A DNA stretch of 64,000 nt, from the NCBI GenBank assembly GCA_022821545.1, contig JAJEDJ010000027.1:1-64000 (forward strand), read 5' to 3'. The stretch's first letter is position 1; each line of letters starts with the position of its first letter. Shown in pieces: positions 1,237-16,340 of the stretch. The position numbers and the translations under genes were made by a program. Below the pieces are notes generated by a model that was not told the DNA's origin, searched no databases, and saw only the letters and a program-made list of their open reading frames with translations. Source of the stretch: Caldilineaceae bacterium (GTDB lineage: Bacteria > Chloroflexota > Anaerolineae > Caldilineales > Caldilineaceae).

Positions 1237-1965
1237 TCACAAGGGAAGCGTGCGCCCCGCTTCCCGAAGGCGTTGGCGGCGCTGCTGAGCGTCGGGCATA
1301 GCCTCAGCCACCAAGCTCCAGAAGTCCGTCGAGTGGTTCCGATGGGTCAGGTGGGCCAACTCGTGGACGATGATATACTCAATAAGCGCTGGAGGAAGCA
1401 TCATGGCGCGCCAGTTAAAGCGGAGGGTGCCATCGGGCGCGCAACTACCCCACCGTTGGCGTTGATCGCGTATGAGAACCCGCGACCGTTCTCCCTGGCC
1501 GAGCCGAGGCCACCAACGTTTAACAACGTTCGGCAGCCGCTCGGCGGCCCGGCCCCGATACCATCCGACGATGGCGCGCCGGATACGCTGTTGCCGTTCC
1601 TCACCTTCGAGACCTTCAGGCACAGCCACCCGGAACCGCCAGTGGTCGAAACGGACCTCAGGCAAGTGCGCCTCACCAGTATCGACGATCATGCGGACGT
1701 TGCGTCCCAGGTATGGCAGCGTCTCGCCGCTGACGAAGCGTTTCGGCGCGGTCTCCAGCATCTCACTTGATGCATGGCTGAGTATCCAGGGCGCCCGCCG
1801 GCGCACGATGGCACGCAGTTCGTCCTCCGGCGTTGTCATGGGTGCGGCAACCTGCACGCCGCCGCCGTCCATTGTGATCTGCACCGTTTTCCTGCGCCGT
1901 TTGCTGCGGCGTACCTCGTAGCCGATGGTCGTGTTGCCGAAGCGGACACTGCCCCGCTCGCTCAC
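1237..1965 (-). CDS. YgjP-like (SprT/M48-type) metallopeptidase
   Basis: This 242-aa protein belongs to the YgjP/DUF45 family of predicted zinc-dependent proteases. The zinc motif HELAH is at residues 201-205, with a probable third ligand H211 in HRNHSTDFW, and the family signature RWGSC is at 171-175. The GTG start overlaps the hsdR stop by four bases (GTGA), so it is translationally coupled as the last gene of the restriction operon. Members of this family are commonly found beside type I restriction genes, but their substrate is not known. A role in processing or controlling the restriction complex is inference. The length is normal and the gene looks intact. Confidence 0.88.
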   Translation of the reverse strand: MSERGSVRFGNTTIGYEVRRSKRRRKTVQITMDGGGVQVAAPMTTPEDELRAIVRRRAPWILSHASSEMLETAPKRFVSGETLPYLGRNVRMIVDTGEAHLPEVRFDHWRFRVAVPEGLEGEERQQRIRRAIVGWYRGRAAERLPNVVKRWWPRLGQGERSRVLIRDQRQRWGSCAPDGTLRFNWRAMMLPPALIEYIIVHELAHLTHRNHSTDFWSLVAEAMPDAQQRRQRLREAGRTLPL

Positions 1966-4900
1966 CGTTCTCTCCTCCTGCGTGCCATTTCGACGATCCG
2001 GTTCGCCAGTTCGTCCAACTGGACTTCGGTGTAATCGCCCGTGGGCCTGAGCACACGCTTGATGTCCCGGCGCATCTCCCGCAGGAGCTCCAAGTTCGAC
2101 TGCCAGTCCACAACGGTGTAGTGCCGGTCGACGACTGCCTGGACCTTTAGAGCAACGCTTTTCGTACTCTCATCGATAGATGTTCGGTACTGTGCTTTCT
2201 CCTCACGTAACTGCGAGGGGGAGACGGCCTCCTGTGACCGTTCATCCAGCAGTTCGTAGATGGCAAAGGCGACAGGGGACAGACCGCGTTCTGCGGCGAT
2301 GTCGGCTTCGCTTCGAACATCCTGGCGCAGCAGGGCAAGGTAGCGGCACGCCTCTGCCGAGTCGATCAACCGATTGCGAAGGTCTTGAATGATACGCTCA
2401 AGCTGTGCCGAGAGCTTTTCGAAGAAAGCAGGGTTGTCGGCCAGGCGTTCGTGTATCTGCGCCCTGATCGCGTGCTCCATGATCGAGGCCCGGGCCTCGT
2501 CATGGGGAAGGGCGGCGATCTTCTGCTCTAAGTCTTGATCGAGGATGGATACTGGCCGCATCATCTCCCGTACCTGGGCACTGATGCGTTCGTCCACCAG
2601 ATTCTTCACCTTAGCCCCGATCTCGGTCCAGTCTGCGTCAGCGTCCTCACGAAGGAACTGGGCGCGGGCGTAGGCGCGTATCTCCGTAAGCCGCGCCAGC
2701 CGGTCCGTGTAGTCCAGCGCGCGCGGGTCGGGCAGGAAGCGATCCATGAGGCGTGAGAATTGGCGATAGTCAGCGTTGAACCGCTCGAACAGGTCGGCTT
2801 TGAAGTTGCTCTCTGTGGAGGCGTCCGGTGCAAAGACGCTGACGCACGCCCAGGTGTCACTGAAATCCCGGCCCCTGAAATGTGACTCCGCCTGGACAGC
2901 CGCCGCCTCGACGACCGGCGCCGGGTCCTCGTCCATCTCCTGCATCGTGTCTTGCACGTCCGCCCGGTCGAAGGTGGAAAGGGCATCATCAAGGTCCCGG
3001 GATACGCCGTGGTAGTCCACGACCAGACCGTGGGTCTTCTCGGTCTCCACTCCGTCCCGGCGGTGGGAGAAGGGACGGTTGACCCTCGCAATGGCCTGGA
3101 GCAGCCCGTGCTCCCGAAGCGCCTTGTCCAAGTAGAGCACCTGCTCTACGGGCGCGTTGAAACCCGTCAACAGCATGTCGACCACGACCAGCACCTCCGG
3201 CTCTCCCTCCGGATCGACGAATGAGCTTTCAACCTGCTCCCGGTCGAGTTCGCGGGCCGCCTTGAACTCCGGTCCGTCGTTGGGGACCGTGGTGATGATG
3301 GGATAGGCGCTAAGGCCAAAGTCTCGTAACCGCTCTGCGTAGCGCAGGGCGGCAGCCCGGCTGGGCGCGACAACTTGGGCCTTGAACCCGTTGGGACGCA
3401 CCCGTTCCTTGAAATGTTCGGCGATGTCCAGGGCGATCATCTCGATGCGGCGCTCCGCTCCCGCCACCGTCTCTTTATTGGCATAGCGTCGGCGAATTTG
3501 CGCCTGAATCGAGGGAGGATTGTCGCCGAACATGGCTTCGTACAGCCTGTCCAATGTCTCCGGCCCCTCGACGGCAAGTTCGGGCAGGCGGGCCTCATAG
3601 AAAATTGGCACCGTCGCGCCGTCCGCCACCGACTGCGGAATGGTGTAGACGTCGATGAGCGCGCCGAAGCGCCCAATGGCGCTGCGCTTGTAGTCCTTCT
3701 CTATAGGTGTTCCAGTGAACCCTATGAGGGCCGCGTTGGGCAGCGCCCTGGACAAGCGCCCTCCGAGGATGCCGTACTGAGTGCGGTGGGCCTCGTCCAC
3801 CATGACTATGACGTCCTGCGAGGCGTTGAGCACATCAAACTCGCCCTCAGAAGCCGTTAACGCTTCCTCGAACTTTTGGATGGTGGTCATAACCGTGCGG
3901 CCGGCGCCGGTAGTGAGTAGACGACGCAGATGCCGGCTGGTGGACGCCTGTTCCGGCGCGGGAAAGCCGCACCGCTTGAAGGCGCCGGTGATCTGCCGGT
4001 CCAGTTGGGTGCGGTCGGTGACCACGACGATGGTGGGATTGCCCAGACGAGGCTCCCGGCGCAGCTTCGTCGCAAGCCACAGCATGGTCAGCGACTTGCC
4101 TGACCCCTGGGTGTGCCACACAACTCCACCCCGGGACTCCGGCTTACGGTCAGCGAGCAATCGCTCCAAGGCAGCGCGGACCGCGCGGTACTGTTGGTAG
4201 CGCGGCAGCTTCTTGACTACCCGTCCCCGCTCTGGCTCGTAGACCACGTAGTCCCGCAGGATCTCCAGCAGGGTCGCCGGAGACAGCAACCCGACGATGA
4301 GTTGCGCCTGGCCCTGTGGCTCGACGCCGAAGTGCTTGCGAATCTCATCCTCCGAACGCGGCAGCGTCGATTTCCACTCGAAGTAGGCGTTCTCGGAAGC
4401 GCCGAGGGCGGCGTAGGCGGCGGCAGCCCCACAGTGGGCCACGCAGAGCAGATTGTAGTAAAAGAGTTCGGGTGCGCCGCTCCCCTGCCACTCCGGTCCC
4501 GCCTCCTGGTAACGGCGAAGCTGTCGCACAGCCTGCGACTTCCAAACATCCATGAGCGACGGCGACTTGGCCTCCATCACCACTAATGGGATGCCGTTGA
4601 CGAACAGTACCAGGTCGGGGATGACCATGCGCTCGTCGTCCTCTGACCCGCCCCGCTCGTTGCCACGGCGAACCCGAAACTGGGCTGTGACGACGAACTC
4701 GTTGAGGCCGCCATCGGGGCGCTCGAAGTCGAAGAAGCGGACGATGCGGGAATCCCTTCCCCGCAGTCCGTCCACGGTCAAGGGCATCCCGTAGGTGAGG
4801 TACTCGTGGACCGCCTGGTTGCGGGCCATGCCGGTTGCGTTGATGTGTTCAAGGTCGAAGATGGCGCGGTACGCTTGCTCCTCGGTCATCCATTCGTTGA

Positions 4901-5069
4901 GACGCATCAGGGCCGCCCTCAGACGCCCTTTCAGCAGAACCTCCCGTTCGTCACCGCGCTCCAACGCCAGTGTCTCGCGCGGCACGTAGGTCCACGCCAA
5001 TCGCTCCAGAAGCCGACGGGCCGGGTCCTCAGCGTGGTTGAATTCGTTCAGTTTCGCAGGTACTACCAT
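1962..5069 (-). CDS. hsdR: type I restriction enzyme, endonuclease/translocase subunit R
   Basis: This 1035-aa subunit cuts DNA after ATP-driven translocation in complex with HsdM and HsdS. The N-terminal PD-(D/E)XK nuclease site is visible as D152 and E166-A-K168. The SF2 motor follows, with Walker A GSGKS at 322-326, DEAH at 425-428 and the motif III element GFTGTP shortly after. The C-terminal helical part is rich in charged residues, as usual for the M-binding region. The ATG overlaps the stop of a short upstream frame (TGATG), and the 3' end overlaps the YgjP gene. The protein is full length with all catalytic motifs, so the nuclease is probably functional if a specificity subunit is available. 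Confidence 0.95.
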   Translation of the reverse strand: MVVPAKLNEFNHAEDPARRLLERLAWTYVPRETLALERGDEREVLLKGRLRAALMRLNEWMTEEQAYRAIFDLEHINATGMARNQAVHEYLTYGMPLTVDGLRGRDSRIVRFFDFERPDGGLNEFVVTAQFRVRRGNERGGSEDDERMVIPDLVLFVNGIPLVVMEAKSPSLMDVWKSQAVRQLRRYQEAGPEWQGSGAPELFYYNLLCVAHCGAAAAYAALGASENAYFEWKSTLPRSEDEIRKHFGVEPQGQAQLIVGLLSPATLLEILRDYVVYEPERGRVVKKLPRYQQYRAVRAALERLLADRKPESRGGVVWHTQGSGKSLTMLWLATKLRREPRLGNPTIVVVTDRTQLDRQITGAFKRCGFPAPEQASTSRHLRRLLTTGAGRTVMTTIQKFEEALTASEGEFDVLNASQDVIVMVDEAHRTQYGILGGRLSRALPNAALIGFTGTPIEKDYKRSAIGRFGALIDVYTIPQSVADGATVPIFYEARLPELAVEGPETLDRLYEAMFGDNPPSIQAQIRRRYANKETVAGAERRIEMIALDIAEHFKERVRPNGFKAQVVAPSRAAALRYAERLRDFGLSAYPIITTVPNDGPEFKAARELDREQVESSFVDPEGEPEVLVVVDMLLTGFNAPVEQVLYLDKALREHGLLQAIARVNRPFSHRRDGVETEKTHGLVVDYHGVSRDLDDALSTFDRADVQDTMQEMDEDPAPVVEAAAVQAESHFRGRDFSDTWACVSVFAPDASTESNFKADLFERFNADYRQFSRLMDRFLPDPRALDYTDRLARLTEIRAYARAQFLREDADADWTEIGAKVKNLVDERISAQVREMMRPVSILDQDLEQKIAALPHDEARASIMEHAIRAQIHERLADNPAFFEKLSAQLERIIQDLRNRLIDSAEACRYLALLRQDVRSEADIAAERGLSPVAFAIYELLDERSQEAVSPSQLREEKAQYRTSIDESTKSVALKVQAVVDRHYTVVDWQSNLELLREMRRDIKRVLRPTGDYTEVQLDELANRIVEMARRRRER

Positions 5070-5175
5070 CAGGCTTTGCTCAACAGTTCCTCAAGACTCT
5101 GAGACGTGAGTCGCTCGCTCCTTGCATTCGCAAAGACGATGACACTCTTCGTTGTGTCGAGTGCTTGAGAGTCTT

Positions 5176-5358
5176 CTACGAGCACTCTTTCGGCGAAGGT
5201 CTCACCTTCCCTATTGGTACCCGTATTCGCCCCGTCAGCAGCGCGTCGGCCGCGGAGCCTTTCATCGTTTGTAGCACGTCTCGCCCCCTTCGCGCCCGAT
5301 CTGTGGCATCGTCGACGCTGTCCAGCACTATTCGGTCTATTCCTTGGACGGGGGGCGG
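5176..5358 (-). pseudogene. 3' relic of an hsdS specificity subunit gene
   Basis: Read on the minus strand this stretch encodes PPPVQGIDRIVLDSVDDA, then a coiled segment and ALLTGRIRV, before a stop at 5176-5178. This matches the conserved C-terminal helix of HsdS proteins (PPL-x-EQ-x-x-I-x-x-x-LD ... LLTGxxRV). Everything upstream, including both recognition domains, is gone, and the reading runs into the end of the DUF2442 gene. In the same interval another frame ends in TGATG at the hsdR start, which may give a short coupling peptide. The simplest reading is that a normal hsdM-hsdS-hsdR operon lost hsdS here and that DUF4160/DUF2442 took its place. Confidence 0.6.
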
Positions 5359-5681
5359 ATTTCGTGGATGGTCACAGGAAGCCCTGCCCGCTTTGCTTCC
5401 AACCAGCGCTTGAAGGAATTCTGGCTTTCTCCCGAAGGCCAGCCGCCCAGCAACATTTCCACACTGATGTCCTCATCCAAGGCGGGCCAGTGGATACCCT
5501 CGCCCGCGCCGATCAGCCGCCAGTTCTGGCGTTCCTCCGGCGTGGCATGAATGAGCCTGGGATACCAGGACAGCGGCACGGATACGGTCCGACCATCGGA
5601 GAGCTCGGCGGTCAAGGTATCCTCCGTCACCTCGACCGACATGGCCTCCGGAACACTTACCTTAAGAGTTGAAACGTTCAT
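5337..5681 (-). CDS. DUF2442 domain protein
   Basis: The start chosen is MNVSTLKVS at 5681, which overlaps the end of the DUF4160 gene by 20 bases; a longer in-frame start at 5717 adds 12 unconvincing residues. The 114-aa product has the DUF2442 core: a beta-hairpin around LTAELSDGRTVSVPLSWYP and a C-terminal WLEAKRAG segment. DUF2442 proteins are small and often sit directly after DUF4160 genes, in an arrangement resembling toxin-antitoxin pairs. No biochemical role is established to my knowledge. Its location inside an hsd operon, next to an hsdS relic, suggests it moved in as a unit with its partner. Confidence 0.82.
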   Translation of the reverse strand: MNVSTLKVSVPEAMSVEVTEDTLTAELSDGRTVSVPLSWYPRLIHATPEERQNWRLIGAGEGIHWPALDEDISVEMLLGGWPSGESQNSFKRWLEAKRAGLPVTIHEIRPPSKE

Positions 5682-5898
5682 TCCAAGCCTCCAGAAACAA
5701 AATCTGGTTCTCCTCAACTATCCTCTCGATCCGGCGTATCTCATGGCGCCTCAAGCTGCCTGTCTTTTGGAGCCTGACCGGGTCCAGCCAGAACTTGGCG
5801 ATGCGGTCATCACGTTCAACATGAATGTGTGGTGGTTCTCCCCGGTCGCTCGCGTAGAAGAAGAACCGGTACGGCCCCTCCCTTAGTATCACCGGCAT
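5662..5898 (-). CDS. DUF4160 domain protein
   Basis: This 78-aa protein shows the typical DUF4160 sequence: ILREGPYRFFFYASDRGEPPHIHVERD near the start and an IxRIVEEN...FLEAWNE tail. DUF4160 and DUF2442 genes are usually adjacent, overlapping, and mobile as a pair. Here the ATG lies 15 bases after the hsdM stop, so it is probably part of the hsd transcript. The partner gene starts within its last codons. The function is unknown, and a toxin-antitoxin or regulatory role is only a guess from size, pairing and context. Confidence 0.85.
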   Translation of the reverse strand: MPVILREGPYRFFFYASDRGEPPHIHVERDDRIAKFWLDPVRLQKTGSLRRHEIRRIERIVEENQILFLEAWNERFNS

Positions 5899-5913
5899 TG
5901 TTCGACCGCCATA

Positions 5914-7443
5914 CTATCGGACATAGCCCATCTCCGCCAGCAGTTCGTCCATCTTTGCCACCGCCTCATCTCGCCGCCGCTCTGCCACTCTCAGTTGAGC
6001 CAGTGCCTCCTCTACCGGGATCACCTCCACCGGCTCTGTGGTGTCCACGTAGCGGCTGATGTTTAGGTTGAAGTCGTTACCTTGTATCTCCTCAAGCTCC
6101 GCGACGTGGGCGAACCGCTCCACATCCTTGAAGCCCCTGTACGCCTTGACGATCTTGTCTATGTGTTCCGGGTCGATGAAGTTCTGGGCCTTGCCGGGAC
6201 GGAAATAACCCTCCTGGGCCGCATCTACGAACAGCACCTTTCCCCGCCTCTCTACAGGCTTGGCCTTGTTCAGCACGCAGATGGCGACGGGTATGCTGGC
6301 CCCGAAGAAGAGGTTGGGGGCTAGGCCGATCACCGCCTCGAACAGGTCGGCCTTGACGATGCCCTGACGTATTTTCCCCTCGGATCCGCCACGGAACAGG
6401 ACTCCGTGAGGCATCACCACGCCCACCATGCCTTGGGCGTTGGTCACCCCCAACATGTGCAGAAGGAAGGCGAGGTCTCCCCTGGTCCTGGGTGGCGTTG
6501 CTCCATAGCGGTCGAAACGGTGGTGCGGGTCATTGGGAGCGAAGTCGCGGCCCCAGTTCTTGTGGCTGAAGGGCGGATTGGCGATAACGCGGTCGTAGGA
6601 CAACAGCCGTCCTGACGGGTCCACGAGGCCCGGCTCGGCTATCACGTCCCCCGCCTCCAGCCGACTGGCACGCAAGCCGTGGAGGAGCAGGTTGAGCTTG
6701 CCGATGGCCAGCGTTCCCAGGTTGCGTTCCTGGCCGTGGAGCGCGAGATTGCGGAGGTCTCCGCCCTGTTCACGCACGTACTGCGCCGCATAGATGAGCA
6801 TACCTCCGGAGCCCGCCGTCGGGTCGCAGATGCGCATCCCCTCGCGGGGTTGGAGCAGCTCGATGATGAGCCGGACCACGGGACGGGGCGTGTAGAACTC
6901 CCCGCCTTTCTTGCCGGCGTCATCGGCGAACCGGTTGATCAGGTACTCGTAGGCGTCGCCCAGCACGTTGCCTCCGCCCGCTCTGTCCTCTCGCAAGTTC
7001 TCGTCGCGCAGGTCCAGATCGCCGAAATGGTTCAGCAGGCTGCGGATGATGCGCTCGCGGTTGGCAGGGCTCCCCAGCTTCGATTCGTCATTCCAGTTGG
7101 TGGCGGTCAATACGCCGTCCAATCTGGGGGTGTTGGCATCCTCGATGGCGTGGCTGGCCACGTTAAGAGCCTCACCCAGATTCATGGAAGAGGAGGCAAT
7201 GGCCTCCCAACGAGCTGACTCCGGGACGAAGCACTCGTGCTCATCTCGGTCGTTGAGGGCCACGTCGCGGGCAACGCCATCGGCAACGGCGTTCTCGACC
7301 TCTTCGCCGAACCGGTCGGAGAGACGTTTCAGGAAGAGAATGGAAAAAATGTAGTTCTTGTAGTCGGCGGCGTCGATCTGTCCGCGCAAGACGTCGGCGG
7401 CCTGCCACAGCTTCGATTCCAACTCTTGTCTGCTTAGCGTCAT
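5914..7443 (-). CDS. hsdM: type I restriction-modification DNA methyltransferase subunit M
   Basis: This 509-aa N6-adenine methyltransferase protects host DNA and forms the core of the restriction complex. The N-terminal helical bundle (residues 1-150) precedes the catalytic domain, with the SAM-binding motif DPTAGSGG at 207-214 and the catalytic NPPF at 289-292. The C-terminal tail (about 450-509) carries the coiled stretch that contacts HsdS. The ATG overlaps the hsdS stop (ATGA), showing tight coupling. Length and motifs are normal, so the enzyme appears intact. Confidence 0.96.
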   Translation of the reverse strand: MTLSRQELESKLWQAADVLRGQIDAADYKNYIFSILFLKRLSDRFGEEVENAVADGVARDVALNDRDEHECFVPESARWEAIASSSMNLGEALNVASHAIEDANTPRLDGVLTATNWNDESKLGSPANRERIIRSLLNHFGDLDLRDENLREDRAGGGNVLGDAYEYLINRFADDAGKKGGEFYTPRPVVRLIIELLQPREGMRICDPTAGSGGMLIYAAQYVREQGGDLRNLALHGQERNLGTLAIGKLNLLLHGLRASRLEAGDVIAEPGLVDPSGRLLSYDRVIANPPFSHKNWGRDFAPNDPHHRFDRYGATPPRTRGDLAFLLHMLGVTNAQGMVGVVMPHGVLFRGGSEGKIRQGIVKADLFEAVIGLAPNLFFGASIPVAICVLNKAKPVERRGKVLFVDAAQEGYFRPGKAQNFIDPEHIDKIVKAYRGFKDVERFAHVAELEEIQGNDFNLNISRYVDTTEPVEVIPVEEALAQLRVAERRRDEAVAKMDELLAEMGYVR

Positions 7444-8060
7444 AAGCTTCTCCCCAAAGTTGCAGGTACGGCCCCGTGTGCTAACTCATGTATCACCGCG
7501 TCACGGAGTGCCTCGCGGCGCAGCCGTGCTGCTTCAATCGTTGATTCATACGCCTCTTCCGACGCTTCCACGAGTCGGGCCACCGCATCAAGGTCTCGCG
7601 GCGACGGCACGGGTACTTGGACCTCTCCCAAGTTTTTGGCCGAGAGTGACTTGAGAGTGGCACTCGCCGTCATCCGCTTGGCGATCTGCGTCCGGCCAAG
7701 GGATGAAGTGAGGCAGTACCAAAGCCAGTGTGCCATACCGGATTCCGGTTGTTTCGCCCGCACCACCAGCAGCGTCACGCCCGCGACCGTTCTCGATACC
7801 TCCGGCGGTACGAGGGCAACTTGGGTGGACGCTGTACGCGCCGTCACCAGCAGGTCGAAGGGCCGCAGCAGGTGGCGTTCGGTACGGACGCCATGAACGA
7901 GCCCAATCTCGTTGAGGTCGTTGAGGTCCAGCCAGCCGTCGTCGCGCACGTCGCCGCTCTCAACGATCCGCAACATCCATTTTCCGCTATGTGCTCCAAC
8001 ACCGTGCCCGGCACGGGCAATGCCCTGAAATACGTTGGCCAGTTCTTTCACTGCGTGCAT
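7440..8060 (-). CDS. hsdS: half-size type I specificity subunit (single recognition domain)
   Basis: The product has 206 aa, about half of a normal HsdS of roughly 400. It contains one target-recognition domain (about residues 1-140) and one conserved C-terminal helix (about 145-195, with LKSLSAKNLGEVQVPVPSP and a following coiled region ending in REALRDAVIHELAHG). Half-size HsdS proteins can act as homodimers recognising a palindromic bipartite site; this is known for some natural and engineered examples. It is the first gene of the leftward operon, directly before hsdM. A good promoter lies just upstream and leaves almost no leader. Truncation of a full-length gene is possible, but coupling to hsdM argues for use. 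Confidence 0.8.
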   Translation of the reverse strand: MHAVKELANVFQGIARAGHGVGAHSGKWMLRIVESGDVRDDGWLDLNDLNEIGLVHGVRTERHLLRPFDLLVTARTASTQVALVPPEVSRTVAGVTLLVVRAKQPESGMAHWLWYCLTSSLGRTQIAKRMTASATLKSLSAKNLGEVQVPVPSPRDLDAVARLVEASEEAYESTIEAARLRREALRDAVIHELAHGAVPATLGRSL

Positions 8061-8066
8061 AATATG

Positions 8067-8095
8067 ATCCTAGCACGTTATAGTTCTGTTGTCAA
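8067..8095 (-). promoter_or_regulatory. sigma-70-type promoter of the hsd operon
   Basis: On the minus strand TTGACA (8095-8090) and TAGGAT (8072-8067) are separated by 17 bases. The expected transcription start falls at or within a base or two of the hsdS ATG (8060), so the message could be leaderless. An AGGA inside the -10 box is the only Shine-Dalgarno-like element. Confidence 0.6.
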
Positions 8096-8099
8096 TTTG

Positions 8100-8146
8100 C
8101 AACACTAGCCCGTGTTGTGGTATGGTGGAATCATAATCGATTATGA
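8100..8146. promoter_or_regulatory. two dyads in the hsd/Schlafen divergent intergenic region
   Basis: CAACAC-6 bases-GTGTTG (8100-8117) and the perfect 16-bp palindrome TCATAATCGATTATGA (8131-8146) lie between the divergent hsdS and AlbA-type genes. The first dyad lies immediately upstream of the hsd -35 box. They look like operators for a regulator not encoded nearby. Confidence 0.4.
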
Positions 8147-8340
8147 ATGATGTGCCAAATTCCGATTGGTTTGAAAGATGCGGCAATCCATGCAGGCAAC
8201 GAAACGGCCGCGGCGACCGCGTTTCAAGCGGTGTCGCGGGCGGCAAAACGACGAGGCCGCTCTGGAAACGCTCTCACCAACACACGCTGCGCGCCTACCT
8301 ATAAGAACGGTCCGTAGCATATGCAGATTCGGAGACTCGC

Positions 8341-11300
8341 ATGACGGAAAACATTGATGTCGTATCGCTACTTAAACGCCCAGAAGGAGAGACACTTGAC
8401 TTCAAGGCGACTAATTACAACCTGTCGGATAGTAAAAGTAAACGGAGCTTCGCCAAGGACCTCGCAAGTCTTGCAAACACCCCCAGAGACGGCGATGCGT
8501 ACCTGATTCTGGGGGTTAAGGAACAGGGTGACGGCAGTTATAAGCCACTCGGTATCAATAAGCCTGTCGACGACGCCGATCTGCAGAGCGTGGCGGAAAG
8601 TCTGCTTACCCCCTGTCCTCGTTTTCAGCACCAAGTTATCCGGCACGGCGGCGTTCTCCTGGAATTGATCACCATCCCCATAGGGCGATCCCCGGTTGCG
8701 CCCAAAAGAACGCTGGATAATGGTTTTACAGAAGGGACAATTTACTTCAGGCGCGGGTCTCAAAATGCCGTCGCTTCAATGGATAAAGTTAGACATATTG
8801 TAGAGTGGTTTCAAGGCCAAATCAGTCTCGCCGAGTTCAACGAGCAGACAACATTTCTACACAAGAACCTTGATGCCGATGCGTTGCTTCTCGGTCCGGT
8901 CCAAGCGCTTGGCCTCACATCCGATGTCGAGGAGGCCGCCCAGAGTTTATCATCTGGAGATCTAGCAAACGCCGCGGCCGGCTATGCGAGGGTTGCCGAG
9001 AAACTTCGTAAGCGATTTCCGGGACATGCTGATCGATTTGAGGAGTTGCATGCCACGACTTTGAAGGCGGCCGGAAAACCGGACGAGAGTCATGATCTGC
9101 TGATGAAGATCGCTATTCGCAGGCTTTTTGAGCGGCCCGAACCGCGACTTTCCCCAAGTGTGAGGCGTGCTCTTGAAGAATTGTATGACGAAGTCGACGA
9201 AGTCAGACGGGCCCGAGGGGGCGCCCTTATTTTCTTTGGAATATGTCACGAAAATCCTTGGACACTTCAAAAGCTTGTAGAGTGCTTCGACAATCTGGAT
9301 TCGAGCGATGAGTACGCGCCTTTCATTGCAGTGCTTCTTGCGGAGGCTGCGCTTGCTATCAATGACTTTCAAACCGTGTTGGACCGTCGTGAGTCTCTGC
9401 AAAAGGCGGGAACCAGAGGTGATACTTCAATTGAATTGCGGGTGTGTGCCGCATTAGGTGATGCCGGCGCGGATGACGTGTGGCTCAATCTTATCAAAAA
9501 AGCTGAGGCCTTCCGACTTTCGGCCCCTGAAGGGACTTACGTTTGCCTTCGGGGTGCTCGGTGGTGTGCGTTGAAGGGACAGATGGACAAGGCCGAGTCT
9601 CTCTACCGCTTAGCGATGAAGCTCGGTTCAGAGGCGGGGCTCGATTTGGATGTCGAGAACGCCCTCTGGTCCCTCAATATCATCTATGCTCTTGACTTTC
9701 CCGCGGCAGACTTCTTTGAAACGCACGATTTAGCGCTGTCCATTGAAGGATCGCACTCATACGTGAAGGCAAACTCACGAACACCGTTGCATTCGTTTCA
9801 ATACACTGCAATTGGGAAATTGCCCGACGCACGTCTGTGGACACAATACTGGTTACTTGAGTCTATACGCAGTGGATGCCTCCGGGACGAACGTGAAGCG
9901 CACGCGAACCTCGCGCGGATTTTCGATCAGGCTAACGAACCTCTTCTAGCTCTTAAACATGCCGTCCTCGGCGGTTCACAGGATCTCGTCAAGGAACTGG
10001 CTCTTAAAGTCAGTGAATGGCCGGAGTTTCTCGCCAACGCGGTGGGCAGTGATGCGCCTTGGGTACGAAGAGCAGCCTTCTTAGCTCTCGAAAGTGTCGG
10101 CGACTTTGCACCTCCCGAGGTGGCGCGCGAGCTTGTTTCTGGGCTTCTATGTCGGCTCCGCATCGACTCAGGTGACGAACAAGAGGTTCCGATCTTACTC
10201 AATGCACTCGGGGCGATCATCCTGGAGGCCACTGACGATGACCTTGAACAACTCATACCTATTCTTGAGCAGGCAGCTGAACATGAGCCCGATAAGTACC
10301 GGCTTACCGATCCAGGCGTAATGGCTATAGCTGCGCGTTTGTATCGGTTCCGGCCAACATTCAGGCAGCAGGCCGCCTCGATTCTCGGAGAAATGGCGGT
10401 CGGTGCCCACACGGGCAAGTGGGCACCGACGCTCGAGGCGTGTGGAGACGACAAGAGGGATCTCATCGAGGCATTTGAGCGAGTCGCTGAACGTGAGAAT
10501 CTCGATCCCACTAGACCATTGTCCGACTTAGGACATCTGACTGCTTCTACACGTACGCTTTGGTCGCAACGGATGCAGTCCGTTACTGAACGTCCTTCGG
10601 GAGAGCGGTCTGAACATGCCTTTGGTACTAGGTCCGGCATCCCCGTCGCATTTCTTCAGGAGCAGGATACGGCAGATGTTCTCCGGTACGTCGAAAAGTT
10701 GGTCGCGATTGGCACCGCCGAAAACGAGACGGTTATCACTCGAACTGCCGCGCTTGGCGCGGCGGCCCAAGCCATAGATGTGCTTACAGACGAGGGAAAG
10801 GGGCAAATCTTCGGGCGTGTCCGACCACTTGTAGAACAGCCGGTCCGTATTTCCGAAGTGGATCGTTATTTCGCCAGTTCTCAGCACCCGCTCAGTCGTA
10901 ACCGGATAAACTTCGGAAGCGCAACCAATGTGCAAGAAACGGCCGGATGGCTTTTAGGGCGCGCGGCAACAAGTCCAGGAGAATGTTTCTTCATGGAGAA
11001 GGTTGCTATGGAATGGATTGGGTCGGATGAACCGGAGCTCCAACAAACTGGGGCCTCGATCCTCACCCTGCCGAACTTCTCTTCCTGTAAGATCCAATGT
11101 GTTGAGCTAGTCAAGCACAAGAATCCATTGGTCCGCAGCGTAGCTGTCCGGGCTGCTGTCACTCAATCGAAACTGGATGAAACCGCGTTCGAACAGTTGG
11201 CATCTGATCCGGACCGAAGGGTGCGAATAGAAGTCGCACAAGCTCTCCAGCCTGTCCGCTCGAAGGCCCCCGATTTATACGAACGGATTCGAGCGCGTTT

Positions 11301-11352
11301 GAAAACCGATTCGAGCGCAATCGTGAGAGTTTGTGCTTCGACGCTTCTGTAG
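8341..11352 (+). CDS. Schlafen/AlbA_2-type protein with long helical-repeat C-terminus
   Basis: This 1003-aa protein starts with an AlbA_2 (Schlafen-like, putative DNA-binding or nuclease-related) domain at about residues 5-150. The family pattern is visible: EGETLDFKATNYNL, then FAKDLASLANTPRDGDAYLILGVKE, and a final YFRRGSQNAVAS. The remaining 850 residues are almost entirely alpha-helical, with TPR-like repeats at about 190-560 and HEAT-like repeats from about 560 to the end (for example RRAAFLALESVGDFAPPEVA and VRSVAVRAAVTQSKLDE). GGAGA lies five bases before the ATG. It is divergent from a type I restriction operon and lies in a defence island. A role in phage sensing or nucleic-acid attack is inference, and I recognise no named system with this architecture. 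Confidence 0.78.
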   Translation: MTENIDVVSLLKRPEGETLDFKATNYNLSDSKSKRSFAKDLASLANTPRDGDAYLILGVKEQGDGSYKPLGINKPVDDADLQSVAESLLTPCPRFQHQVIRHGGVLLELITIPIGRSPVAPKRTLDNGFTEGTIYFRRGSQNAVASMDKVRHIVEWFQGQISLAEFNEQTTFLHKNLDADALLLGPVQALGLTSDVEEAAQSLSSGDLANAAAGYARVAEKLRKRFPGHADRFEELHATTLKAAGKPDESHDLLMKIAIRRLFERPEPRLSPSVRRALEELYDEVDEVRRARGGALIFFGICHENPWTLQKLVECFDNLDSSDEYAPFIAVLLAEAALAINDFQTVLDRRESLQKAGTRGDTSIELRVCAALGDAGADDVWLNLIKKAEAFRLSAPEGTYVCLRGARWCALKGQMDKAESLYRLAMKLGSEAGLDLDVENALWSLNIIYALDFPAADFFETHDLALSIEGSHSYVKANSRTPLHSFQYTAIGKLPDARLWTQYWLLESIRSGCLRDEREAHANLARIFDQANEPLLALKHAVLGGSQDLVKELALKVSEWPEFLANAVGSDAPWVRRAAFLALESVGDFAPPEVARELVSGLLCRLRIDSGDEQEVPILLNALGAIILEATDDDLEQLIPILEQAAEHEPDKYRLTDPGVMAIAARLYRFRPTFRQQAASILGEMAVGAHTGKWAPTLEACGDDKRDLIEAFERVAERENLDPTRPLSDLGHLTASTRTLWSQRMQSVTERPSGERSEHAFGTRSGIPVAFLQEQDTADVLRYVEKLVAIGTAENETVITRTAALGAAAQAIDVLTDEGKGQIFGRVRPLVEQPVRISEVDRYFASSQHPLSRNRINFGSATNVQETAGWLLGRAATSPGECFFMEKVAMEWIGSDEPELQQTGASILTLPNFSSCKIQCVELVKHKNPLVRSVAVRAAVTQSKLDETAFEQLASDPDRRVRIEVAQALQPVRSKAPDLYERIRARLKTDSSAIVRVCASTLL

Positions 11353-11673
11353 CGATGAAACATGCGCTCATAAGGTTGTAGCCGGCCGGCTGCCGTGAAT
11401 CGCTACCTGGGCCCGTGTCCCTGCTGTCGCCTTGAGGCGGCTCCTGGAGCAGGCATCAGCGCGGCGTGGCTACGTCCTGCGCCACACTAGGTGCCTCGTG
11501 TTTGGGGTTGCGCGCGGTGGTGGGATACGATCAAGGCATGCGCTACAAAGGGTCTTAATTGGTATTGGTGGGAGATTACGGAACGCGCAACGAAGACGAG
11601 GTGTTTTCATGGGAAGATGGGAGAGGAAGAGCCGGAGGGCAAGAAAGCAGCGAAGAAACGCTTCGACGATGAA
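11353..11673. other. intergenic stretch, no gene recognised
   Basis: No recognisable protein is encoded between the AlbA-type gene and the insertion-sequence end. A few short frames are open but lack family resemblance or ribosome-binding sites. Confidence 0.4.
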
Positions 11674-11830
11674 TGAAGTGGGCCCCAAAAACTGGACCGC
11701 AAGCTAAGGTTTATAGTGGAGCAATTCACCAAGCCTATGGAGGGGCAGAACGATGGTCAAGAAACGGCGGCGACACACGGCGGCCTTCAAGTTCCGGGTT
11801 GCGCTGGAAGCGCTTGAAGGCAGGAAGATC
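11674..11830 (+). mobile_element. 5' remnant of an IS3-family insertion sequence
   Basis: The segment begins with TGAAGTGGGCCCCAAAAACT, resembling IS3-family terminal repeats. About 80 bases later an ATG (11753) opens the N-terminus of an IS3 OrfA, MVKKRRRHTAAFKFRVALEA, the typical start of the helix-turn-helix transposase subunit. After about 25 codons the resemblance stops and the sequence joins the body of a DUF2442 gene on the other strand. OrfB and the right end are missing, so this is a one-ended, immobile fragment. Confidence 0.7.
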
Positions 11831-11947
11831 GGAATATGGAATGAGACCCTTTGCACCGTCGGCGAAGCTGAGTTCGATTCCGTGTTTCAAGAGGCTGGCG
11901 ACCGTCATCATGCGATTGGCGTTTTTGACGAGAACGGCGTCAATCAT
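11813..11947 (-). pseudogene. DUF2442 gene truncated by the IS3 remnant
   Basis: From an ATG at 11947 the minus strand encodes MIDAVLVKNANRMMTVAS followed by IELSFADGAKGLIPYSDLPAF, a recognisable DUF2442 core. After about 45 codons the frame enters insertion-sequence DNA and becomes meaningless until a stop at 11735. It is a second DUF2442 copy in the window, not closely similar to the one in the hsd operon. Upstream is a 51-codon gene rather than a DUF4160 gene. Confidence 0.55.
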
Positions 11948-11982
11948 CAGTTCCCCTGATTGCGCTGTCGTTAGCCATCCGA

Positions 11983-12138
11983 CTACTCTTTCTTTACGGA
12001 CATCAGAAATTCACGGTGTGTCAATTCCGCTCTGTCAATCGCTTGGATCGCGTCGCTGAACTGGTGATCCAAACGCTTGCAGACAATCTCCGCGCGCCGC
12101 TTATCGGCGTCCGTACAGAACAGTTCAAGTTTACTCAT
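11983..12138 (-). CDS. 51-aa hypothetical protein
   Basis: This short frame opens with MSKLELFCTDADKRRAEIVC and is followed by a predominantly helical, charged remainder ending MSVKKE. An AAAGG lies about ten bases before the ATG, and the composition looks like a real small soluble protein. It ends 35 bases before the truncated DUF2442 gene in the same direction, so the two may have formed a small operon before the insertion. I do not recognise the family; a small partner or antitoxin-like role is speculative. Confidence 0.5.
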   Translation of the reverse strand: MSKLELFCTDADKRRAEIVCKRLDHQFSDAIQAIDRAELTHREFLMSVKKE

Positions 12139-12264
12139 CTTTAGCGCCTTTCCATGCTGGTGATTCGTTGTTGCCGACCTTCTATTCTACCAGCTTGGTT
12201 AAGCGCTCACTTACTCCGAATTCAGGTTAAGCAGGTAGTTCCCTTTTTCCCCGACTAGCCTCGC

Positions 12265-12885
12265 TTATCCTTTCGGATCTTCCTGCGTCGGCGCAGTGAG
12301 CGTTGCCGGAGCTTTTGCCGTTAAAGAGACTTCTAGCTTTACCGAGGCGCGCACCTCTATTGCCTCCCGAGTTCGAGCCAGCTCCGCTGCCAACAGTTCC
12401 TCGTCGGGCAAGGCAGTTCGGTACTCAGCAGCAAGAACTTCGTTCGCCAATCCCTCTAGTGCATACCGCGCCAGCGCTTCATTCTTCTCCGAGCAGAGAA
12501 TCAGTCCAACCGGCGGGTTTTCCCCCTCCCTGCCCCGATTCTCCCGGGCATAGTTCAGATAGAAGTTCATCTGTCCCGCGTCCGCGTGGGAAAAGCTCCC
12601 GATCTTCAAATCGATAACTGATTTGCCGGTTAAGCTGACGAACTGACCGCCCTCCTCGCAATGCCTCTTTTTCATAGAATTCACGCGCATGCACGTTCCT
12701 TACCGATAGCAACCGCACGTAGGCAGACCATGGCAAAGGGAAGGCAGTGAGAAGCTCTCTAAAGCGCACTTCGATCGAATTGCCGTTAGATTTGCCAGAC
12801 ACTGTCTGGCAAATCTTGTCTGAAGGGTAGCTTATGTAGAAGAGACGCATGTTATGAAGATTCTGACGGGAAAACCCGCGTCCAT
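12265..12885 (-). pseudogene. YhcG/DUF1016 nuclease gene with internal deletion and frameshift
   Basis: Two out-of-frame parts of one YhcG protein remain. The N-terminal part has GRGFSRQNLHNMRLFY, then FPLPWSAYVRLLSVRN and SVRQLNRQI. The C-terminal part has VIDLKIGSFSHADAGQMNFY, NPPVGLILCSEKNEALARYAL and AAEYRTALPDEELLAAEL. The junction is near 12620, where about 150 residues of the PD-(D/E)XK nuclease core have been deleted and the frame shifts. YhcG proteins are predicted nucleases frequent in defence islands and close to type I restriction genes. This copy cannot be functional. Confidence 0.75.
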
Positions 12886-12951
12886 TTGCACTGCCGTGCG
12901 CAATGTTCCAGCAGTCCCTGGAATGCCGCCCGGCCCGCCTGTGCTGCAAAG

Positions 12952-13626
12952 TTATTTCCCAAGGTTCTCCAATTTACCAAGCCACTCTGCAAAATGAGGG
13001 CATGCCGAGCGCAGCGTCGGCAGCCCGATCTGTCCGGCCACGATAGGTCCAACAGAATTCTTCCAGGAATTATAGTTTAAGAGTTCCTGGTTGATTCGTT
13101 TCGACGGTGGGTTATCGTCGTTGACAAGCTCAGGAGACTGAAACTGCGAAGCCATGGCCACCAGATTCGATATTCCTTCAACGCAGTCGTCATACTGAGA
13201 CTCAAATTTTTGCGGATCGGAGAGCAAGAGTGCCTCGAATTCGTACAATTGTATATAGGGAAAAAAACGCGAATCACCGATGTCCTCTGCCAAGGCATCT
13301 TCCAATGTCTGCACGCGCCGATAGGGGTCGTTGTGCGAAGCGGCTACGGCGTAGCCGGGGAAATCATTGGGTAGCTGGTAGAGATCGAACATTGTGGTGA
13401 AGCGGACGTCCATGTCACTGTGCTGGCTAAGCAGGAGACGTATGTCTCTTTCTGGCTTGGTATAGTTGCCAATGCCACCACGGTGGGTGAAGTTGGGCGA
13501 TTCCCTTGTAGTAACCACCAAGACATGAACGTCGAGAGAAAAGCGGGCCAGATGCGGTTTCAGAGTATGATTGACAAAGGTTGCTTCTGTCTGTCCTTCG
13601 GCTATGATGTGCAACGTCACATCCAT
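12952..13626 (-). CDS. DUF4276 (TOPRIM-like) protein, partner of an AAA ATPase
   Basis: The start MDVTLHII at 13626 shares one base with the stop of the upstream ATPase gene (TGATG), which decides against the in-frame ATG 33 bases upstream. The 224-aa product matches DUF4276: IIAEGQTEATFVNHTLKPHL near the N-terminus (the EGxTE element resembles the acidic motif of TOPRIM-type nucleases such as OLD and RloB), a central FPYIQLYEFEALLLSDP block, and a C-terminal helical part. Two-gene modules of an AAA ATPase followed by DUF4276 are found in prokaryotic defence islands. The nuclease assignment is inferred from family resemblance. Confidence 0.8.
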   Translation of the reverse strand: MDVTLHIIAEGQTEATFVNHTLKPHLARFSLDVHVLVVTTRESPNFTHRGGIGNYTKPERDIRLLLSQHSDMDVRFTTMFDLYQLPNDFPGYAVAASHNDPYRRVQTLEDALAEDIGDSRFFPYIQLYEFEALLLSDPQKFESQYDDCVEGISNLVAMASQFQSPELVNDDNPPSKRINQELLNYNSWKNSVGPIVAGQIGLPTLRSACPHFAEWLGKLENLGK

Positions 13627-14732
13627 CAGGGGCGTCCCCCGATTACGTTCTTTTCCCACAGTTCAGAAAGGGAATACTCTTTGAGCCATTCATCTAGCGC
13701 CTCGCTACTCTCCTGGCGTCGGAAGACCGACTCACGGCCTTCGCGCTCGACAACGACGATGTCGCCCAGATCGAAACGATCGACGAAAGCCGTCGATTGG
13801 GTGGCGACAATAACCTGTACCTTTTGAGAGACAGCGCGAATCAACCCGCCTATCACATCGATGGCTGCGGGGTGGAGCCCCAGTTCCGGTTCGTCTAGGA
13901 TAAGAATATCCGGCAACATCTCTTCCGGTTGCAAGAGCAGGGTGACAAGGGCAATGGCGCGCAACATTCCGTCCGAGGCCTGTGAAACGTCAAAAATCAC
14001 GTCGCTGTTGCTTTCGCGCCAAGCGAGTATCAGCCTTCCGCTTTCGGATATCAGTTCAAAATCAAGAAAAAATGGCAGGAACAGTCGTATGTGATCGACG
14101 ATGCTTTGGTAGCGACGTCTTTCCTCTCTCTTCAGGTTAAACAGGAAAGGAGCGATATTAGCTCCATCCTCTCTCAAAGAAAAGTTGTCGATTGCATCCC
14201 ATTTGGTGCGAATATTCGCTGTCGCTGACGTATTATGAAACTGGTAAACGACTATCTTTTGAAGAAGATCAATGATGTCGTTCACTCTATAGTCTTCAGA
14301 TAATTGGGAAAGGAGTTGCGGCGCGTGATGACCGGTTCCCAATGAATGCCAGGGCACGGCTTCGCCCCCAACTCCACGATAACGCTCTTCGGAAAAAATC
14401 AAAGTGTCGCTGGCCGCGAAGGTTAAGAGAAACTCGTACTCATTTTCTCCTGAGCCGCTACGTATTGTGAGTTGAGCTTCAATCTTATGAGTGACGGCCG
14501 GCCCATCGAGCAGGAGCCTGCTCGCGCCCCCTTGTTGGGCAACATAGGCTTGAAAAAAGAAGGGGTCGATCAGCATTTTGTTCAGCATGCTAAAGAAAGA
14601 GATGAAATTGGACTTGCCAACTCCGTTGGGCCCAATGAGCACGGTCAGAGAACCGGGCTGGAAACCGTCCAGCTCGCGAATCGTCTTGAACCCTTTGAGG
14701 CTGATGCTTTCAAGCCTGCCTCTCATACGCAA
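13626..14732 (-). CDS. AAA15-type (SMC/OLD-like) ATPase
   Basis: This 368-aa ABC/SMC-type ATPase has Walker A GPNGVGKS at residues 34-41, the signature-like SDGMLR at 253-258 and Walker B LILDEPE at 277-283, followed by a switch region (IVATQSTAFVD). It opens with the typical RxxxLKGFKTI motif. These ATPases act as sensors or motors together with a linked nuclease. The next gene, DUF4276, overlaps its stop, so the two form one module. The architecture resembles RloAB or AbiL-type pairs, but subfamily assignment needs a profile search. The gene looks intact. Confidence 0.86.
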   Translation of the reverse strand: MRMRGRLESISLKGFKTIRELDGFQPGSLTVLIGPNGVGKSNFISFFSMLNKMLIDPFFFQAYVAQQGGASRLLLDGPAVTHKIEAQLTIRSGSGENEYEFLLTFAASDTLIFSEERYRGVGGEAVPWHSLGTGHHAPQLLSQLSEDYRVNDIIDLLQKIVVYQFHNTSATANIRTKWDAIDNFSLREDGANIAPFLFNLKREERRRYQSIVDHIRLFLPFFLDFELISESGRLILAWRESNSDVIFDVSQASDGMLRAIALVTLLLQPEEMLPDILILDEPELGLHPAAIDVIGGLIRAVSQKVQVIVATQSTAFVDRFDLGDIVVVEREGRESVFRRQESSEALDEWLKEYSLSELWEKNVIGGRP

Positions 14733-14803
14733 TTTGGCCCCTGCTTCCTCATGCCGTGCTCACTCACCGGCAACTCTCTTCCATGCATTCTCCATAGTAT
14801 ACC

Positions 14804-15080
14804 TTACGCTTGCCGGTGCTCCATCCTGATCTGTTGAGCTATCGCGTGCATATCCAGCTTGCCCGTGACCATGTGGGAAATCAGGCGAGCCCGGTATTCC
14901 CACATGAGTTCGACCTGACAGCGGGTGTTGGCGATGGCGGCGGTGACTTTGTCGAGATGAGTGGCGATGACGGACTGTTCCGGAAGGGATGGGACGGACA
15001 ATCGCGCGGGTTTGATTGCTTCGTGCGTGAGGCCAAAACGAGTGACACCGTTAGCAGTTACCCGAACACTTACGAACAAC
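14804..15080 (-). pseudogene. 3' relic of an hsdS gene
   Basis: The minus strand encodes an HsdS C-terminus: NGVTRFGLTHEAIKPARLSV, then PSLPEQSVIATHLDKVTAAI and EYRARLISHMVTGKLDMHAI. The conserved LPEQ, helix and VTGKLD elements are clear. It covers about one conserved region and the end of a second recognition domain, and the rest is missing. The upstream part has been replaced by the TIR gene, whose end overlaps the open frame. Its sequence differs from the other hsdS relic, so it comes from another restriction system. Confidence 0.75.
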
Positions 15081-15089
15081 GCACTGCAT

Positions 15090-15875
15090 TTACGACTCGT
15101 GAAGGTCATCCTTGACTACATCAGCGATTTCAGTTGCGATCTGATCGATCGTGAATTGTGATGTGCTTCGTGCCAGTTTGTCGGCGAGCGTGGGGCTGTG
15201 AGCTATAATTTCGCTTCTGGTTATATTATGCCAAAGTGGAAGTATCACTTGCTTACCTGTTCCCGCCTTTGTTACGAGCCCGTCCAATTCATACTGAGGC
15301 CATTCCTTCGCAAAGAACGAGGGTGAAATGATGACTACGCCGAATCTGCTGCTGGCAACACCAGTATCAATTTTTCGCCGCAGACTGTCCCCAATCCTGA
15401 GTTCAAATTCGTCGTACCATACCCGCAGCCCTTCGGCATCAAGAGCTATAGCAAGCGGGCGGGCCACTTCCTCTTTGTCCTCAGTGGCATGTGAGATAAA
15501 CACGTCAAAGTAGTCATCTGAATTTATCAAATCCGACGCTGCATGAACAGGTTGCACGAGGGAAGATAGTGGCCCTGGGTTGTATTCAGGTAGCGGCGAC
15601 AAAGTTTCATTAGGGATAACGCGAACAGAGGATCTGGTTGTACCTCTTAATCCTTGCATATCCACAACAACGTACCAAGTGCCCGAATGTGGAATTGGAA
15701 TTCGTGTAGGGGATCTTTTGACCAAGCCGCCATAGTACCTATGCTTACGCCCGGACCGATAATCCTGGTAATTCATGCTGTCGAGTAACCTCACGTTGGC
15801 TGCATTTCCTGACAACGTTACTTCAACCTCATCGCCGCGCTGTCGGTGGCCAAGTTGGTAGTAATTGTATTTCAT
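15090..15875 (-). CDS. DUF1883-TIR domain protein, probable NADase-type defence effector
   Basis: This 261-aa protein has two domains. Residues 1-95 are DUF1883 (MKYNYYQLGHRQRGDEVEVT start, IPIPHSGTWYVVVDMQGL strand). Residues 121-255 are a TIR domain with DVFISHA at 124-130, a box-2-like VWYDEFELRIGDSL segment, and the candidate catalytic glutamate E196 in SPSFFAKEWPQYELDGL. Bacterial TIR domains with this glutamate degrade NAD+ and serve as abortive-infection effectors. What DUF1883 senses is not known to me. It is flanked by an hsdS relic and an AAA/DUF4276 pair, consistent with a defence island. No partner gene for a Thoeris- or CBASS-like system is adjacent, so it may act alone. Confidence 0.85.
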   Translation of the reverse strand: MKYNYYQLGHRQRGDEVEVTLSGNAANVRLLDSMNYQDYRSGRKHRYYGGLVKRSPTRIPIPHSGTWYVVVDMQGLRGTTRSSVRVIPNETLSPLPEYNPGPLSSLVQPVHAASDLINSDDYFDVFISHATEDKEEVARPLAIALDAEGLRVWYDEFELRIGDSLRRKIDTGVASSRFGVVIISPSFFAKEWPQYELDGLVTKAGTGKQVILPLWHNITRSEIIAHSPTLADKLARSTSQFTIDQIATEIADVVKDDLHES

Positions 15876-16152
15876 ATCAGCCGACTCCCATCATAGCTCG
15901 ACGGCACCCGGCCCCGGCGCGAGCAGAGCGGCGCAGCGTTCTCATCAGTTGCCTCCAGGTGGGACATTTTGCCCGCGGACTACCGTACACCATTGCGACA
16001 TCGTTGACAAGAGCAGCCACTCCAAACACCCAACCTTTTCCCAAACCCAGGAGAGCTGTGGAGCGTCGGGAGATTTTTTGTCTGGTCGGCAAGGTGGTAC
16101 AGTCAACAGGAGTTGTTTGGAAGCGAGAAAGCAAATTGACGGGGAACCGGTG

Positions 16153-16181
16153 TTGACACCGGCGCCGGCTGGCGCTATACT
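16153..16181 (+). promoter_or_regulatory. sigma-70-type promoter of the importer operon
   Basis: TTGACA (16153-16158) and TATACT (16176-16181) are separated by exactly 17 bases, 160 bases before the binding-protein start. The same arrangement occurs at the zur gene. Confidence 0.8.
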
Positions 16182-16187
16182 GTGCCT

Positions 16188-16207
16188 TGTTGCGAATTTT
16201 CGCAACA
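16188..16207. promoter_or_regulatory. Zur-type operator (copy 1)
   Basis: TGTTGCGAA and TTCGCAACA form a perfect 9-bp dyad around two bases, starting six bases after the -10 box, so bound protein would block transcription initiation. It matches the dyad before the Fur-family gene at 18 of 20 positions. AT-centred dyads of this size are typical of Fur-family operators. Assignment to Zur is inferred from the linked regulator and zinc genes. Confidence 0.75.
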
Positions 16208-16340
16208 GTAAAAATTATCATTTACTACAATCATTTCCCACAATGCGACGGAGGGCATTGCAGCGACTGCCGCAGCTCTGCCGGCTCCTGAGGCCAATTG
16301 TGGGGGCACACACCGCCAGTCTGACGAAAGGGACCCGCAG

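Follow-up and report, generated by a model that had tools for sequence, protein, structure and literature searches.

The window analyzed here, a stretch of 64,000 nucleotides from a Caldilineaceae bacterium, contains a gene for a long protein with a Schlafen-type N-terminus, which lies back to back with restriction genes. This locus raises the question of what such a protein could do there and how its two parts came together. The open reading frame at 8341-11352 on the plus strand starts with ATG and runs through 1003 codons without an internal stop, and a GGAG sequence is located 6 bases upstream of the ATG, so that the gene and its own ribosome-binding site, both proposed in the initial annotation, were borne out. 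The GC content of the gene is 53.9% compared to 60.5% for the window, the stretch around it (8061-16300) is similarly low in GC (53.1%), and the gene was the sole match in its own genome. The gene and its parts are as follows:

8341..11352, plus strand: AlbA_2/Schlafen-solenoid protein of 1003 aa (ORF, Pfam, AlphaFold2 model)
8331..8334, plus strand: GGAG, probable ribosome-binding site (read from the sequence)
8383..8769, plus strand: SLFN_AlbA_2 domain, residues 15-143, with the motif E15, D20, K22 and R137 (PF04326, E 7.9e-11)
8797..8880, plus strand: junction, about residues 153-180, where the likeness to relatives starts (blastp)
8860..11349, plus strand: conserved TPR/HEAT-like alpha-solenoid, residues 174-1003, the proposed sensor (blastp, all-helical model)

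Pfam analysis of the window protein showed that residues 15-143 match SLFN_AlbA_2 (PF04326) with 43 bits, compared to the curated cut-off of 25.3, which confirmed the AlbA_2 N-terminus described before. Residues 923-996 match HEAT_2 (E 7.7e-10, 39.4 bits, cut-off 27.7). The HEAT part of the TPR- and HEAT-like repeats claimed earlier therefore stood, whereas the label TPR-like now refers to paired helices in the structure model, because no TPR model matched the protein at E 0.1. The full-length AlphaFold2 model, built on a 12-row alignment (mean pLDDT 77.8), has an alpha/beta head, after which residues 148 to 1001 are nearly all helical, in agreement with the earlier estimate of about 850 helical-repeat residues; the pLDDT is about 90 for residues 190-600, and residues 123-183 are poorly predicted. 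The structural matches of the solenoid in a fold search with the full model were generic (importins, CAND1).

A model of the head, built with AlbA_2 relatives from viral contigs (pLDDT 83.3, pTM 0.79), matched 3lmm (Z 12.7) and 2kyy (Z 11.1), which indicates the AlbA_2 fold, as well as the tRNase domain of rSAMD9 (Z 9.4) and SLFN proteins (Z 7.4 to 8.8), after which the list of fold matches dropped to Z 4.9. A profile of ten AlbA_2 domains, one row of which is the window head itself, gave as its best PDB match a protein named CbCash (9.5e-13). SLFN structures were matched at E 5.3e-9 to 3.4e-5, among them 5yd0 (5.3e-9; N-domain, with the molecule named Schlafen 8 and the entry titled SLFN13), SLFN11 (1.6e-8) and SLFN14 (2.2e-7), and rSAMD9 at 0.12 only. 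E15, K22 and R137 are invariant in the aligned domains (10/10), and position 20 is D or E in all of them, the second Glu of the ExxxxExK motif being Asp (D20) in the window protein. According to excerpts of PMC12215978, SLFN14 requires the glutamates and the lysine of ExxxxExK as well as R133, and an excerpt of PMC5862951 reports E205 and E210 as required in SLFN13. As aligned, the window head keeps the predicted Schlafen motif ExxxxE/DxK and the invariant arginine, and we infer that R137 is the counterpart of SLFN14 R133. The alignment with SLFN11 has two matched stretches, of which the first (N-lobe) contains the R137 motif (YxRxG) and the second (C-lobe) the acidic motif. When the AlbA_2 part alone was searched at E 1e-5, the remaining 45 of the 46 family genomes sampled gave no relative.

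For the solenoid, we counted 26 family members with a readable N-terminal part, which come from genomes of Chloroflexota and Actinomycetota and from four plasmids. Repeated records were counted once (L010, L011 and L012 repeat G002, G001 and G004, and likewise L013-L015 and G445-G447), and the partial solenoid matches in G1365, G1240 (two places) and G1387 (stop inside) were left out. Family matches were found in 4 of the 46 genomes of the Caldilineaceae-related family sample and, for the order of a Streptomyces, in 12 of the 343 sampled genomes, three of these by partial matches only. By blastp, the solenoid identity to the window protein is 43-50% for four close relatives and 22-27% for distant ones, and a solenoid profile that includes the window protein as a row matched its residues 175-1002 with E 0. 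The canonical Walker A pattern, which does not cover the GGT/S variant present in SAMD9, was absent from all 24 members tested, and Pfam at E 0.1 found no STAND or other P-loop NTPase, SIR2 or OB-fold in the window protein. Judged by sequence, the solenoid is thus a scaffold devoid of a P-loop NTPase. Single-sequence scans with the whole window protein gave no match in viral contigs or genome contigs, and none was found in phage records. NCBIfam returned for it nothing but a weak hit at residues 925-1000, which scored far below the cut-off, and PADLOC matched neither two relatives with a restriction-endonuclease (REase) head nor the G842 member. The solenoid family is covered by no PADLOC or NCBIfam model.

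The N-terminal domain of this family is not constant. In 24 of the 26 members, the solenoid is preceded by one and the same Mrr-like REase domain (22 of 25 proteins by profile, the separate frame of G001, and G1197); the window protein has AlbA_2 in this place, and one member, G842, has neither. Leave-one-out REase profiles recovered each of the 23 heads tested with E 9.5e-36 or better, whereas the REase profile did not match the window head or the G842 head even at E 10. Of 25 proteins, the AlbA_2 profile, with the window head as one of its rows, matched only the window protein. In the REase heads, E and D are conserved in 22/23 each, with one row gapped, and Q in 23/23. Pfam Mrr_cat gave 21.7 and 21.2 bits in two members (cut-off 21), 19.6 in a third and no match in three others with a head, and a profile search by sequence found no solved structure for the domain. 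Because of the weak Mrr_cat matches and the conserved E, D and Q-x-K/R residues, we consider it likely that the shared N-terminal domain has the Mrr-type REase fold. The last position of the Q-x-K motif is K in 9/23 of these heads and R in 14/23.

The position of the head change was located by comparison with the relatives. The window protein matched 21 of the 23 other members by blastp, with the matches beginning at residues 153 to 404 and none earlier, and three relatives from the family search align to it only from residue 147 or later. In a maximum-likelihood tree of 24 solenoids, the window gene falls in a clade of five with support of 100/100, of which the other four are REase carriers; its sister is G114 (support 92/91, not starred). 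Since the likeness starts after the head and the other four members of the clade have the REase, the Schlafen head appears to have replaced a nuclease. The simplest history that these alignments suggest is that AlbA_2 replaced the REase on a conserved scaffold. The REase-solenoid relatives, which occur in Chloroflexota and Actinomycetota and partly on plasmids, have the same solenoid over about 830 residues and the effector in the same position, and the window protein would be their variant with a replaced effector. The G842 member has a very long branch and an uncertain position in the tree. At this locus (L069 5538-12168), a helical head of about 165 aa stands instead of the nuclease.

Only one AlbA_2-solenoid chimera was found among the 26 members, so a fusion in one lineage, non-functional or with a new role, is possible. 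If it were an accident without conserved function, the chimera would be decaying or neutral, as might be expected in an island that contains remnants (a C-terminal piece of YhcG and a Methylase_S fragment) and in a family whose G001 member is broken into two frames. We regard such an accident as very improbable, given that the frame of 1003 codons is intact, that both modules retain their conserved residues, and that blastp gives 50% identity between the solenoid and that of the nearest relative. In the G001 relative itself (L029 8111-11346), the REase-solenoid gene is split into two frames, and the stretch at the start of the solenoid is repeated.

The place of the AlbA_2 domain, where relatives have a REase-type domain and beside restriction genes, also leads to the idea that it is a DNase with the same target as the replaced REase, so that restriction of unmodified or foreign DNA was kept and the fold alone changed. 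An excerpt of the SLFN14 paper (PMC12215978) likens the Schlafen active site to restriction enzymes. The nearest characterized catalytic relatives, however, are RNases, namely SLFN13 (according to PMC5862951) and the rSAMD9 tRNase domain (according to the PDB title), and we consider a retained DNase target quite unlikely.

The restriction genes themselves occupy the opposite strand, as the initial annotation had described, and lie 280 bp from the ATG of the gene. The operon and its intergenic region contain the following features:

1962..5069, minus strand: HsdR (HSDR_N E 2.2e-30, SWI2_SNF2 E 6.8e-74)
5914..7443, minus strand: HsdM (N6_Mtase E 1.2e-93)
7440..8060, minus strand: HsdS-like protein of 206 aa, half size (PADLOC Specificity_I E 2.1e-10)
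8131..8146, no strand: perfect 16-bp palindrome, possible operator nearer hsdS (inverted-pair search)

These genes form a type I restriction operon. The HsdS-like protein has half the usual HsdS size and may act as a dimer of half-subunits. The dyads reported earlier in the shared intergenic region are real: we found 16 inverted pairs in 8050-8360, the clearest of which is the palindrome at 8131-8146. When up to 3 mismatches are allowed, the window contains 2 matches to this palindrome, one of them exact, compared to 0.06 expected. The palindrome overlaps the -10 element of a promoter-like match that faces hsdS and not the 8341-11352 gene. Rfam gave no match in 5000-17000.

We also compared the neighborhoods of the relatives. 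A restriction/modification-type methyltransferase is located beside the gene in all five close-clade loci (5/5). Its type is not constant and includes type I, type I with fused M-S, type IIG, and others. At G004, a type I system is divergent from the gene as in the window, and an integrase is also present. The G114 locus contains a type IIG enzyme along with a C-terminal match to Avs2, and a type II-like methyltransferase is found at G001 together with a PDC-S15 (FRG) gene. At G002, there is a piece of a type I methyltransferase, and the opposite side is occupied by housekeeping genes. These results bear on the possibility that AlbA_2 is a nucleic-acid-binding or regulatory domain and the protein a regulator or accessory of the divergent type I operon, for example a repressor acting through the intergenic region. 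The divergent position of the gene relative to hsdSMR, the palindrome in between, and the repetition of the arrangement at G004 agree with this, and AlbA_2 domains elsewhere are often termed DNA-binding, or nucleic-acid binders and not nucleases (e.g., in an excerpt of PMC6299218). On the other hand, the neighboring methyltransferase system changes from locus to locus, the relatives have a REase at the position of AlbA_2, and the catalytic motif is retained; we therefore judge a regulatory role to be unlikely.

The genes on the far side of the window gene extend the locus to an island, which includes the type I operon, HEC-01A/B, a ThsB-like TIR gene and a YhcG remnant:

12952-14732, minus strand: HEC-01-like pair, DUF4276 protein and AAA_21 ATPase (PADLOC HEC-01B 1.7e-69, HEC-01A 1.9e-120)
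15090-15875, minus strand: DUF1883-TIR protein, ThsB-like (Pfam; PADLOC PDC-S66 1.4e-65, ThsB 4.1e-39)
12265-12690 and 14804-15109, minus strand: C-terminal piece of YhcG/PDC-S02 nuclease and Methylase_S-like fragment (remnant-like)

Among the distant members, defense-like neighbors were found at L006, L008, L009 (CBASS cyclase and E1-E2), L063 (weak), L064, L069 and L072. None was seen at L023, L024, L025, L062, L065, L068 and L071, where one protein each was scanned at L025, L068 and L071; the neighbors of L023, L024, L062, L065 and L071 are ordinary or uninformative. The neighbor scans did not include L026, L066 and L067, and L007 is known by record annotation alone. Ordinary neighbors thus occur at some distant members and not at most close ones, so the homologs scanned do not lie mainly in housekeeping contexts, and the neighborhoods suggest an enrichment of defense genes around the family. 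The G842 member is flanked by a PD-Lambda-1-like gene before it and, 24 bp downstream, by a bSEFIR/TIR gene (PADLOC). That the TIR gene acts as an effector in trans is a reading weakened by its bSEFIR match in PADLOC, bSEFIR being a stand-alone system, and by the PD-Lambda-1 match of the preceding gene, and we retain it only within the wider proposal below.

We also compared the window protein with known systems. Avs/STAND and bacterial NACHT defense proteins have exchangeable N-terminal effectors on a repeat sensor. They contain a P-loop NTPase, whereas the window protein has none, and its model is helical after residue 148. SAMD9 is composed of AlbA_2, a SIR2-like domain, a P-loop NTPase, an OB fold and helical repeats, according to an excerpt of PMC5445408. 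The window protein shares with it AlbA_2 and helical repeats, and its head fold-matches the SAMD9 tRNase domain, but the SIR2-like domain, P-loop NTPase and OB fold of SAMD9 were not seen in the window protein (Pfam at E 0.1 and the canonical Walker A pattern). Membership in SAMD9 or Avs was ruled out, as there is no NTPase. In DSR2, as described in excerpts of PMC10981675 and PMC10973363, the protein is a tetramer, and binding of a phage tail tube monomer to the C-terminal sensor activates the N-terminal SIR2. Its outline of an N-terminal toxic enzyme and a C-terminal sensor resembles that of the window protein in layout; DSR2 has a SIR2 NADase, of which the window protein shows no match at E 0.1, and the window protein a nuclease-type head.

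Bacterial Schlafens have already been proposed as defense proteins (Taboada et al. 2025, doi 10.1101/2025.07.24.666596, cited in an excerpt of PMC12839542). Such proteins, including PDC-S50, have like the window protein an N-terminal AlbA_2 as the proposed RNase effector, whereas the AlbA_2 of the window is attached to a solenoid from a family in which the head is otherwise the REase. PADLOC PDC-S50 matches only residues 7-74 of the window protein (positions 9-69 of a 387-position profile, E 2.4e-9), and together with the NCBIfam match far below its cut-off, this indicates that the protein is covered by no system named in PADLOC or NCBIfam. Eight related plasmid proteins (L042, L043 and L073-L078) have 359-433 aa and are too short for the window solenoid. 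In the literature searched, which lay outside preprints and most subscription journals, we recognized no description of this solenoid in combination with AlbA_2 or a REase. What is new here is the exchange of REase and Schlafen heads on one NTPase-free scaffold, in a family unnamed by the PADLOC and NCBIfam defense models used.

The conserved repeat module with a changing nuclease head and the defense-rich neighborhoods of the close clade strengthen the sensor-effector reading of the initial annotation; the defense role, the trigger and the RNase activity of the window protein are what we infer from them. With moderate confidence, we propose that it defends against phages (or plasmids) as a sensor-effector that consists of one protein and has no NTPase. 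The solenoid would hold the effector off until it binds a product of infection; binding would alter the shape or assembly of the solenoid and activate the Schlafen domain, which would cut tRNA (probably) or other RNA, so that translation stops and the infected cell is shut down. Two protomers must probably meet for activation, with their single-lobe heads forming a pair. This pairing is predicted because the bacterial domain has one lobe and SLFN two, with the catalytic acids in the C-lobe and the arginine motif aligning with the N-lobe. Against the proposed sensor-effector, the second catalytic Glu is D20, whereas E211Q inactivates SLFN14 (PMC12215978, in excerpt). The single chimera, the ordinary or uninformative neighbors of several distant members, the description of AlbA_2 domains elsewhere as nucleic-acid binders and the generic fold matches of the solenoid speak against it as well.

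A change of effector while the sensor stays the same is good evidence for a specificity that resides in the sensor and not in the enzyme. The shared solenoid with its different heads suggests an exchange of weapons by bacteria on a detector that stays constant. A wider proposal, to which we give a little less than even weight, is that NTPase-free solenoid sensors are a plug-in scaffold for alternative heads: mostly a restriction-type DNase, here a Schlafen RNase, and in G842 a helical head with a possible separate TIR/SEFIR effector. If so, Schlafen RNases and restriction nucleases would stand in for each other as the output of a single detector, and the Schlafen-type RNase, an animal antiviral domain, would be an exchangeable output of a bacterial scaffold without a STAND NTPase.

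In the genome from which the window comes, SLFN_AlbA_2 was found at 7 places. On contig C34 of this genome, at about 11865 (L036), an AlbA_2 protein with a STAND-like NTPase, as judged by eye, is located beside a frame that appears by eye to be Cas10-like.
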